Assembly (NCBI GenBank): GCA_000991805.1
Contig: LBSF01000004.1
Location: 1 to 17,366 of the forward strand
Length of the DNA: 17,366 bases
Reading direction: 5' to 3'
From: a candidate division WS6 bacterium GW2011_GWC2_36_7
Lineage (GTDB): Bacteria; Patescibacteriota; Dojkabacteria; SC72
A program made the position numbers and the translations under genes. The notes below the pieces were generated by a model. The model worked only from the letters and a program-made list of their open reading frames with translations. It did no database searches and had not been told where the DNA came from. Shown piece by piece: positions 546 to 10,750 of this stretch. How positions within the stretch are numbered: position 1 is the first letter of the stretch; the number at the start of each line of letters is the position of its first letter.

Positions 546-1688
546 CTATTTTGATATTATCTTCGGTTTAAAGAAGATAGCTAAAAGAGATATAACTCCA
601 AGCACTGTAAATGCTATGAATACTCCTTTAGTATCTACTAAAAAACCGATAACAGGATTAAACACTGTTAACATCAAGCGTCGTGCCATGTTCACAAAAG
701 ATAGTACAGTTGATCTTTGATCTTCCTCTATCTCGTTGTTCACATTATCTGAAACTAGTGTCGAAACTTGCAGTCCTAATCCGCCAGAAAAAGCCAATAC
801 GAAAAGAATTCCAATTGTATTATGCAATACCCCTCCTATGATGAATCCTAATCCAACAATTATGGCTATTAAGATTAGAACTTTCTTAAGGCCTAGTTTC
901 TTGAAAAGAATAGGGAATAGTCTGAGAACTAAAAGCTGACTTCCTAGTAGTACTATTCTGTATTCACCAAACGCGATGTCATCAACAGAAAGTACTCTGA
1001 GGGCTTGCTGGTATAGCCAGATTACAAAATAACTAGTTGAACCCAGTAAGCCTGTATATATTGCTAACTTTCTTAAAGTAATATTACTTTTTAAAAGTTG
1101 GAACGCTTCCTTAGCTACTTCAGTTGGTTTCCTTTTTTTCTTACCGCCTTGTGCGGGTTTAATAAGAAAGCCCAAGAGAAGTATAACAAGGAGGTTCGTA
1201 AATATTCCTAATCGGAATATTTGTTGTACTGGTAGCAATGTATTTATGTATATAAATATTACAGATGCTACAATCATCCCTATGATGTTAAAAGTCTTTG
1301 CAGTTGCATAAATTTGTTTAAATTCACTTTGAATATTGTATTTCTCTGCTATTCCGTACATCCATGCTTCCTTAGATCCCGATATAAAGGCTATACCTGC
1401 AGCAAATATGAATTCTGAAAGTAGGAACAGCCATATGTTAGGTACAATACTGTATGTAATTGTTCCTATGATTGTAAGAATATATCCTATTAGCACGGAT
1501 TTCTTCTTCTCTAGGATGAATATCCATAGTGTAAACCAACTTTGAAGCATTTGGGTTTGAGTTTGATTTAGTCCGCCCCAGTCTCGAAAGAATATCAAGA
1601 GTACGGAACCAATTAACTCTAAACCTAATATGAAGTCTACTATCCAGAACAGGTATATTTCCTTTGGCCAAGCAAATATCTTTTTCAT
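546..1688 (-). CDS. MFS-family transporter lacking motif A
   Basis: A hydrophobic protein of about 380 residues with roughly 11-12 predicted membrane helices and the overall plan of a drug/solute-efflux major facilitator. It should sit in the inner membrane; the substrate is unknown. The start at 1688 is chosen because a clear AGGAG lies seven bases upstream of the ATG; an in-frame ATG 15 codons earlier lacks this. The end of helix 2 reads WIFILE and is followed directly by KKKSVLIG. In relatives the segment IPTG..AD..GR stands between these two parts, so the cytoplasmic motif A loop (about 12 residues) is missing without a frameshift. The second-half counterpart is present (VLSFVNMARR, then GFLVDTKG). 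The gene is preceded by a 275-nt structured leader with a terminator. It may be a working variant or a decaying gene. Confidence 0.85.
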   Translation of the reverse strand: MKKIFAWPKEIYLFWIVDFILGLELIGSVLLIFFRDWGGLNQTQTQMLQSWFTLWIFILEKKKSVLIGYILTIIGTITYSIVPNIWLFLLSEFIFAAGIAFISGSKEAWMYGIAEKYNIQSEFKQIYATAKTFNIIGMIVASVIFIYINTLLPVQQIFRLGIFTNLLVILLLGFLIKPAQGGKKKRKPTEVAKEAFQLLKSNITLRKLAIYTGLLGSTSYFVIWLYQQALRVLSVDDIAFGEYRIVLLGSQLLVLRLFPILFKKLGLKKVLILIAIIVGLGFIIGGVLHNTIGILFVLAFSGGLGLQVSTLVSDNVNNEIEEDQRSTVLSFVNMARRLMLTVFNPVIGFLVDTKGVFIAFTVLGVISLLAIFFKPKIISK

Positions 1689-1734
1689 TTCGTTTCTCCT
1701 TTTTAAAATATGTATTTGGTTATTAATGAACAAT

Positions 1735-1760
1735 ACCTACAAATATTTAAATTTGTGGGT
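1735..1760 (-). repeat. Inverted repeat in the MFS leader
   Basis: ACCTACAAAT (1735-1744) and ATTTGTGGGT (1751-1760) form a 10-position stem with one mismatch and a 6-nt loop. It lies between the leader terminator and the MFS ribosome-binding site. It could be an RNA hairpin affecting translation of the transporter, or an operator. Confidence 0.45.
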
Positions 1761-1796
1761 GTATAACTTCCAAATACAATTAGCTTTTAAAAGGGA

Positions 1797-1963
1797 AAAC
1801 AAAAAACCTCCAGTATTTGGAGGCTATTCACTGACAATTTGGTTAGGAATTATGCAATAGATAGGTCTCCAATATAGTGTGTTGCGTGTAGAACGTAACC
1901 ACACATAGATGGCTTGGTTGTAGCGAACTTATTAATTTGTCTATTGCTTATGTTTTGCATAAT
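1797..1963 (-). ncRNA. Candidate structured RNA / regulatory leader upstream of MFS gene
   Basis: No convincing ORF lies here. A minus-strand promoter at 1970-1999 would start transcription near 1963 and the terminator at 1801-1823 would end it, giving about 165 nt. The predicted 5' end (ATTATGC... and GCAATAGA, 1963-1940) is complementary to TCTATTGCATAAT (1861-1849). This forms a 13-bp closing stem split by a bulge of about 10 nt on the 5' side. A TTGGAG at 1872-1867 can pair with the left arm of the terminator (CTCCAA, 1822-1817), which is a possible antiterminator. It matches no riboswitch consensus I know (purine, SAM, TPP, FMN, T-box and others checked by eye). The alternatives are a 6S-like or other small RNA, or an attenuating leader for the transporter. 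Confidence 0.5.
1801..1823 (-). terminator. Rho-independent terminator, minus strand
   Basis: Read on the minus strand, CCTCC-AAATA-CTGGAGG forms a compact GC-rich hairpin (1823 down to 1807) followed immediately by six T residues (1806-1801) and then GTTTT. This is a textbook intrinsic terminator. It lies 112 nt upstream of the MFS start and downstream of a promoter at 1970-1999. It therefore either ends a small RNA or acts as a conditional attenuator for the MFS gene. Confidence 0.8.
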
Positions 1964-1969
1964 GGGGAG

Positions 1970-1999
1970 ATTATATACTCATTTAAATGAGGAATGCAA
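1970..1999 (-). promoter_or_regulatory. Promoter of the structured RNA / MFS leader
   Basis: On the minus strand, TTGCAT (1999-1994), an 18-nt spacer and a perfect TATAAT (1975-1970). The expected start, about seven bases on, falls on the first base of the long closing stem of the structured RNA. This makes the call mutually supporting. Confidence 0.65.
1978..1991. promoter_or_regulatory. 14-bp palindrome in the promoter spacer, candidate operator
   Basis: CTCATTTAAATGAG is a perfect palindrome located exactly between the -35 and -10 boxes of the promoter at 1970-1999. That is a typical position for a repressor dimer. The regulator is unknown; the nearby winged-helix-like gene at 2052-2285 is a candidate by proximity only. 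Confidence 0.45.
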
Positions 2000-9664: not shown

Positions 9665-10750
9665 TTACTGTAATCTTATCTCCGCTTCAACAAATTCCTC
9701 TAAATTCCCGTCCAATACGGACTCAGGATTCTGTGATTCTATACCTGTTCTTAAATCCTTAACTAATTTGTATGGATGTAGTACATAATTTCTAATTTGA
9801 TTTCCCCATCCTGCGATTTTGTAATCTCCCTTTATCTGAGAAATCTCTTCTAATCTTTCATCCATTTTAATTCTCAAAAGTTTTGCTTTCAAGACCTTCA
9901 TAGCTGTTTCTCTGTTTTGAAGTTGGCTTCTTTGTTCTGAAGATTGGACGGTAATACCTGTTGGCATATGTGTGATTTGTACTGCAGAAGAGGTCTTGTT
10001 TACATTCTGTCCTCCAGGTCCTCCGGCTCTGACGGCCTTAAACTCTAAATCAGTCTCTGGAATTTGGATGTCTAGGTCTACATCTTCCATTATTGGTAAT
10101 ACTTCAACTCCTGCAAATGTAGTTTGTCTTAGGCCTTGTGCATTGAATGGCGATATTCTAACTAATCTGTGTGTGCCATGTTCTCGCTTGAGATATCCGA
10201 AGGCGTAGGTGCCAATTACATCCATAGTTACAGTCACAATACCAGTTTCAGTACCATTTAAAATCTCGGAGATATTATATTTCCATCCCATCTTGTCAAA
10301 ATACATTGTATACATTCTCATCAATATACTTGCCCAATCATTCGATTCAGTTCCGCCTTGCCCAGCATGTATGGTCAGTATAGCGTTAGCTTTGTCGTAT
10401 TTGCTGGATAAGAATTTCCTTATTGAGAACTTATCAAATCTCTGTCTTATGCTCTCATATTCTTCTATTAATTGATTTTGATCAGTTTCTCGCTCAATGG
10501 AATTAAAAAGTTCAACCAAGGAATTAGCTTCTTGTTGTAGTTTCTCTGCCGTCTCTATCTCTTCTCGAAGTTGTCCGGCTTCTTCCATTATTTTCTTTGC
10601 TGATTCGGTATCTTTCCAAAAATCCTCTAGAATGGTTTTGTCCTCTAAAACTTTTAGTTTTGATTTTTTTGAATCTAAATCAAGGCTAAGTAAAGTATCG
10701 GAGATATCCTTCTGTAAATCTTGTATATCCTTTTTGCGTAAATCTACCAT
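9665..10750 (-). CDS. prfB: Peptide chain release factor 2 (RF2)
   Basis: Encodes 361 residues, normal for RF2. The stop-codon reading tripeptide SPF (200-202) marks RF2 (UAA/UGA) rather than RF1. The peptidyl-tRNA hydrolysis motif GGQ is at 246-248, within AGGPGGQNVNK. The frame is continuous from the ATG at 10750, without the in-frame UGA that programmes the +1 shift autoregulating prfB in many bacteria; that site would be expected near codon 25, where LDLDSKK is read through. The gene heads the prfB-ftsE-ftsX-M23 cluster. A TATAAT ends seven bases before the ATG, suggesting a leaderless mRNA. Its presence agrees with UGA being a stop codon here. Confidence 0.95.
   Translation of the reverse strand: MVDLRKKDIQDLQKDISDTLLSLDLDSKKSKLKVLEDKTILEDFWKDTESAKKIMEEAGQLREEIETAEKLQQEANSLVELFNSIERETDQNQLIEEYESIRQRFDKFSIRKFLSSKYDKANAILTIHAGQGGTESNDWASILMRMYTMYFDKMGWKYNISEILNGTETGIVTVTMDVIGTYAFGYLKREHGTHRLVRISPFNAQGLRQTTFAGVEVLPIMEDVDLDIQIPETDLEFKAVRAGGPGGQNVNKTSSAVQITHMPTGITVQSSEQRSQLQNRETAMKVLKAKLLRIKMDERLEEISQIKGDYKIAGWGNQIRNYVLHPYKLVKDLRTGIESQNPESVLDGNLEEFVEAEIRLQ

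Follow-up and report, generated by a model that had tools for sequence, protein, structure and literature searches.

A predicted ribosome-controlled transcription attenuator with a leaderless uORF before an MFS transporter gene of a Dojkabacteria bacterium, and similar leaders elsewhere in the Patescibacteria

The window, by which we mean the whole stretch of DNA analysed here (17,366 nucleotides), is contig 4 of the 568-kb draft genome, 73% complete, of the candidate division WS6 bacterium GW2011_GWC2_36_7. Its minus strand carries a gene for an MFS transporter, which is preceded by a promoter-like site, a short open reading frame, a terminator and a further hairpin. The features of this region are the following:

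1970..1975, minus strand: -10 box TATAAT, with a predicted start site at about 1963; invariant in five aligned leaders
1850..1960, minus strand: putative leaderless uORF of 36 codons plus TAA, MQNISNRQINKFATTKPSMCGYVLHATHYIGDLSIA; start and stop common to five leaders, 35-37 codons
1867..1874, minus strand: segment 2, candidate antiterminator strand TATTGGAG, in uORF codons 29-32; complementary to segment 3
1814..1822, minus strand: segment 3, CTCCAAATA, terminator 5' arm plus loop; common partner of segments 2, 4 and 5
1801..1825, minus strand: intrinsic terminator, hairpin 1825-1805 and T-run; found by scan and in five leaders, -10.7 kcal/mol
1767..1777, minus strand: segment 5, GTATTTGGAAG, complementary to both segment 3 and 1719-1712; p 0.008 in the window
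1712..1777, minus strand: downstream hairpin, which with an extension is predicted to hide the Shine-Dalgarno (SD) site of the MFS gene; from folding and covariance model R2
1696..1700, minus strand: SD site of the MFS gene, AGGAG, within the AAAGGAG of the SD-hiding fold
546..1688, minus strand: MFS transporter gene, the gene proposed to be controlled; Pfam MFS_1

The window MFS protein falls into the generic MFS_1 family of Pfam. NCBIfam models of both drug and metabolite MFS transporters match it far below their cut-offs, the matches including L-lactate, Tet(40), multidrug and TetA(P) models, and also fucose and sialate carriers; it is a putative drug exporter. Several of the titled records nearest to it belong to Candidatus Dojkabacteria or to other Patescibacteria. 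At about 1509 on the minus strand, 11 residues are missing from the loop after the second predicted helix by comparison with six aligned relatives, which is either a deletion or an assembly error. An ORF of 105 aa without a Pfam match lies on the same strand at 2052-2369, just 5' of the attenuator promoter.

An earlier note, made from the letters of the window, had described a good minus-strand promoter in front of the leader. This holds for the -10 box only, which is invariant in the five leaders, whereas the -35 element is poor (TTGCAT, 3/6, spacer of 18, by eye) and the site is absent from the promoter-scan list. Two congeners share 97% and 95% identity with the window in the leader DNA, against 65% identity for the MFS protein, and the matched leader parts of two further genera of the family are 82% and 72% identical and lie directly 5' of an MFS homologue. 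In the 60 columns 5' of the -10 box, identity falls to 36/48, 30/57 (G004), 19/56 and 22/48 positions, so that selection appears to act on the leader at the level of the transcript. A near copy of the leader is also present in a contig titled Candidatus Moranbacteria (L032, LBQD01000006.1), where the MFS protein is 57% identical; either transfer between lineages or misbinning may account for it.

The ATG of the uORF lies about 3 nt past the predicted start site near 1963, and 8-9 nt past TATAAT in the five family leaders. Four relatives retain its frame, and so does a fifth, L032, which has lost 15 codons (45 nt) in frame and whose uORF still ends in GYVLHATHYIGDLSIA. Between G000 and G004 there are six substitutions, four of them synonymous, and one 3-nt gap; the four changes between G000 and G005 are all non-synonymous. 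As pN/pS amounts to 0.56-0.64 for the genus against G011 and to 0.95-1.40 for the pairs with G024, the whole peptide seems to be only weakly constrained at that distance. When the inner sequence is shuffled, the frame stays open in 7-13% of trials (long versions), and the open frame alone is weak evidence for a uORF. The case for a uORF is built instead on the start and stop shared between leaders, the in-frame indels, the place of the antiterminator within the frame, and the recurrence of the layout before other MFS genes. In G038, an inner ORF beginning MRDALALLS..., worked out by eye, was rejected as the uORF in favour of a leaderless frame that ends on the antiterminator.

Leaderless initiation looks to be a normal and common mode in the lineage of the window. 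The pattern TATAAT-N5-9-ATG occurs at 86 sites in the genome and its reversed control at 105, and the informative part is the sequence that follows the ATG, not the raw number of sites. Frames of at least 60 codons are opened by 53/86 of these sites, against 515/2997 of the other ATGs (30 fetched loci), while a short ORF followed by a terminator is found at only one of the 86, which is the window leader itself. Two long ORFs of the window, at 10750 and 16393 on the minus strand, have TATAAT 5-9 nt before their ATG, and the former is, by reading of its sequence, what we take to be release factor 2.

Past the uORF, the textbook terminator seen in the earlier note is listed by the scan at 1825-1805 and is present in the five relatives; terminator-like sites number three in the 1-kb region, against a mean of 0.3 in shuffles. 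The distance from its T-run to the MFS ATG is 112 nt, as had been claimed. The pairing of TATTGGAG (1874-1867) with the terminator arm CTCCAAATA (1822-1814), which had likewise been proposed from the window, is borne out by its relatives, since the six pairs TTGGAG/CTCCAA are found in all five rows, bar one C/A cell (G024). In the window, the predicted antiterminator duplex has an energy of -8.5 kcal/mol (p = 0.066 against shuffles) and the terminator one of -10.7 kcal/mol, and in the equilibrium fold of an RNA with segment 2 free the terminator still forms. A switch between the two would therefore have to be kinetic, with the antiterminator forming first.

The 13-bp long-range stem 1963-1940/1861-1849, also described in the earlier note, is not conserved. 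The MFE structure of the window retains 8 of its pairs. Over the five relatives, the first half is paired in 91% of cells and the second half in 70%, with five of six pairs of the latter broken in at least one row, and L032, a further relative, is without the 5' strand of this half. The covariation score of the stem was reached by 123/500 shuffles and its percentage of paired cells by 37/500. At 81.5% paired it exceeds slid versions of itself (34-42%), which is expected because the stem was read off one of the rows. A stand-alone 6S-like RNA, for which this end-pairing had been taken as a sign, was rejected in view of the unconserved long stem and the lack of any 6S match in Rfam. The fold-energy z is -1.89 for 1968-1795 and -4.15 for 1968-1695, folding being weak evidence for the first part of the leader and stronger evidence for the whole.

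The same layout recurs before other MFS genes. Recurrence was scored with a detector that looked for TATAAT (at most one mismatch), 4-10 nt, ATG, an ORF of 10-60 codons, and a terminator with at least 4 G-C pairs located between -35 and +130 relative to the stop. In a first set, which also covers MFS genes from archaea and from further records outside the CPR, 9/58 non-duplicate MFS upstream regions were positive, against 0/1120 dinucleotide shuffles and 1/120 upstream regions of other ORFs from the same loci. A second set gave 3/40 positives and a third 5/31, two of these being repeats of the second set. Counting the window, there are 16 distinct leaders, the hosts of which are Dojkabacteria, records titled Moranbacteria, Woesebacteria and Roizmanbacteria, and other genomes of the phylum. 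Throughout these leaders the ATG lies 6-9 nt past the -10 box, the terminator begins 18-34 nt past the uORF stop (16/16), and the best partner of the terminator 5' arm and loop is inside the uORF (16/16), where its start precedes the end of the stop codon by 10-39 nt in 15 leaders and by 46 nt in L031.

Taken individually, the antiterminator complementarity reaches p <= 0.05 in 10 of the 16 leaders and is not significant alone in L003 (the window, 0.066), L031 (0.13), L034 (0.12), L072 (0.14), L227 (0.36) and L053 (0.57), while those of L148 and L217 comprise 15 contiguous pairs. Fisher's combined p is 2e-12 for all 16 leaders and 1.6e-11 for the 13 that are left without three near copies (L031, L035 and L032), both values being rough because related rows are not independent. 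The layout is the same across lineages, and the uORF peptides and the terminators differ; the sequence has thus changed without loss of the complementarity. A quick tree of 87 MFS proteins, from which L034, L058 and L059 (below 300 aa) and near copies were left out, includes 14 proteins with the device. The label is clustered on this tree (0/500 shuffles were as low), partly via near copies, and it needs eight changes, at least five of which are forced by well-supported branches, so that the device would have been gained or lost repeatedly. By eye, no device was seen before six MFS genes that stand near positives on the tree (L070, L074, L041, L016, L038 and L050). ABC-F genes are frequent owners of such leaders in the papers listed; the same device was found at 0/22 usable ABC-F loci (30 fetched).

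Downstream of the terminator, the hairpin at 1735-1760 that had been remarked upon earlier is real and represents the tip of a larger element, 1777-1712, in which 2 of 16 pairs vary to another standard pair, one by a change in both strands and the other by a change in a single strand. The mean unpaired probability computed for AAAGGAG is 0.21 in the read-through RNA, against 0.76 when the RNA begins at 1777 (segment 5), and the SD site stays hidden (0.21) at equilibrium for RNAs beginning at 1963, 1876 or 1838. A downstream partner of segment 3 has a combined p of 2e-8 over 11 leaders, a test that leaves out L031, L035 and L032 as well as L040 and L053, in the last two of which terminator and gene are too close. 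It reaches p <= 0.008 in the window, L034, L033, L018 (14 pairs), L072 and L227, and p 0.05-0.09 in L217 and L226; L213, L148 and L224 have none (p 0.48-0.74). If segment 5 paired with segment 3, the SD-hiding hairpin could be opened, as a second tier of control. In L072, L226, L227 and L018, a hairpin with a shared (G)GTCTTAG...CTAAG-like motif comes after segment 5, 48-92 nt 5' of the MFS start. No other MFS upstream region of those scanned showed TCTTAG with such a hairpin, and all four carry the attenuator.

Comparison of related leaders thus brings out an ORF, a -10 box, a terminator, competing complementarities and their recurrence before MFS genes. We read the window element as a transcription attenuator that is controlled by the ribosome, has a leaderless uORF and acts on the MFS exporter gene, and give this reading, based on sequence, a probability of roughly 75%. 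The earlier note had proposed an attenuation leader with TATTGGAG as antiterminator and a metabolite as its signal. The former part is upheld by comparison and the latter is not, as a putative leaderless uORF occupies 1960-1850 in place of an aptamer, and the ribosome is therefore the likely sensor. RNA polymerase would start near 1963, and a ribosome would load on the 5'-terminal AUG (1960). Were the 36 codons read without delay, the ribosome would be past or over segment 2, segment 3 would pair with the 3' arm of the terminator, and transcription would stop at about 1801, leaving a terminated RNA of about 165 nt as the attenuated product. A stall 5' of about codon 25, as footprint arithmetic suggests, would leave segment 2 free to pair with segment 3 while the 3' arm has yet to be transcribed, and polymerase would continue into the transporter gene. 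After read-through, the downstream hairpin of the RNA would mask the ribosome-binding site of the MFS gene, and the pairing of segments 5 and 3 could open it in a vmlR-like manner. The inducer may most likely be a translation inhibitor that the pump exports; this is a guess, made because such a compound would fit both the target gene and the absence of a common peptide.

The same attenuator could also be imagined with a uORF that senses an amino acid or a metabolite, in the manner of trp- or cysteine-type leaders or by an arrest peptide, the MFS protein carrying the compound in question. The lactate, fucose and sialate carriers that appear beside drug pumps among the sub-cut-off NCBIfam matches would agree with such sensing, and so would the better conservation of the second half of the uORF than of the first (49/66 vs 19/45 in G011, and 42/69 vs 23/45 in G024). 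However, the 16 peptides, inspected by eye, display no run of one regulatory codon of the trp or Cys type and no convincing conserved or shared stall peptide, and we judge this version unlikely. Considerably less probable still is that 1960-1850 encodes a small protein independently and has a terminator of its own, followed by an MFS gene with its own promoter and no switch between them. An ORF and then a terminator, in a leader more conserved than the MFS gene, is what such an arrangement would look like, but the peptide is 15 codons shorter in L032 and wholly different between lineages while the layout is constant, the best partner of the terminator arm lies in the last uORF codons, and the scan lists no minus-strand promoter-like site between the terminator and the MFS start.

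The least credible of the explanations, to which we attach only a very slight chance, is a metabolite riboswitch in which the downstream hairpin (1777-1712), whose internal loops are nearly invariant, serves as the aptamer. The long invariant loop stretches over five leaders and the whole-leader fold z of -4.15 speak for a structured element of this kind. Nevertheless, the hairpin stands 3' of the terminator and thus cannot control it, and other lineages carry a different hairpin at that place. At the gathering threshold, Rfam 15 matched tRNAs only, in the window as well as in seven related loci, and at E up to 10 it returned only sub-threshold matches of the chance type; a known riboswitch was therefore rejected. 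Covariance model R2 of the downstream hairpin, at E <= 0.1, found matches in 5/85 genomes of the class, each 5' of an MFS gene, with its strong matches at the five MFS leaders only, and two weak ones (E 0.05 and 0.09) corresponding to the opposite strand of the same places. A widespread aptamer was discarded on this account.

Ribosome-sensing control by leaders is known from antibiotic-resistance genes elsewhere. The polycysteine ORFs of mycobacteria, with Cys in their name, are reportedly leaderless leader ORFs, their RNA being said to begin at or near the ATG; unlike these Cys leaders, the window leader has no codon run and its target is an MFS gene. For trpL of S. meliloti, too, the RNA is described as starting at or close to the ATG of its leader ORF; this leader, which concerns Trp, differs from the window leader in the same two respects (PMC7298713). 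A close system is the mef(E)/mel attenuator of Streptococcus, for which the available text describes an MFS efflux gene, a short leader ORF, a terminator and alternative pairing, together with a -10 box that precedes the start site by 7 bp and a weak A+U-rich stem-loop past the terminator (PMC4335068). According to the same text, its macrolide-specific leader peptide comprises 8 codons (MTASMRLR) with their own ribosome-binding site, 34 bases from +1, whereas the window uORF is predicted to be leaderless, has about 36 codons and contains the antiterminator strand (PMC4335068). Two tiers, namely transcription attenuation and an SD-hiding hairpin, are described in the accessible sections on vmlR of Bacillus subtilis, where pairing in the read-through RNA was proposed to open the hairpin (PMC9226507). 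There, as far as those sections go, the uORF has three codons, with its SD in an anti-antiterminator hairpin, and the gene encodes an ABCF factor, whereas the window uORF is long and predicted to be leaderless and the 5' arm of the terminator itself is the putative opening strand (PMC9226507). The window system would work like both mef(E)/mel and vmlR and differs from them in its leaderless, long uORF holding the antiterminator, and in its host. In the open-licence PMC literature, no report of such a device in CPR or Patescibacteria was found among the matches listed on leader peptides, attenuation, leaderless genes or uORFs, and the words 'regulation' and 'leader' are absent from the main text, in the version available, of a survey of CPR resistance genes (PMC8651080).

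On a wider scale, it may be that recurrent leaderless-uORF attenuators of the Patescibacteria (CPR) switch on MFS drug exporters when the cell's own ribosomes are inhibited, that some lineages add an SD-hiding hairpin which the terminator 5' arm can open, and that very small genomes thus hold a cis antibiotic-sensing circuit, gained or lost several times on the exporter tree; we would give this broader proposal an even chance. CPR bacteria are mostly uncultured and have unusual ribosomes. If the proposal is true, they detect translation stress in cis and link its detection to export, and each leader is a natural reporter of compounds that reach and stall CPR ribosomes. A leaderless uORF with the antiterminator in its own last codons would then look like a simple and repeatedly used solution.

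One further MFS leader, L225 (G465), has by eye a terminator, an antiterminator-like GCTTGGCT stretch, a longer 5' end and a uORF farther from the -10 box. It was therefore missed by the detector and stands outside the counts given above, and the true frequency of the device may be higher than counted.
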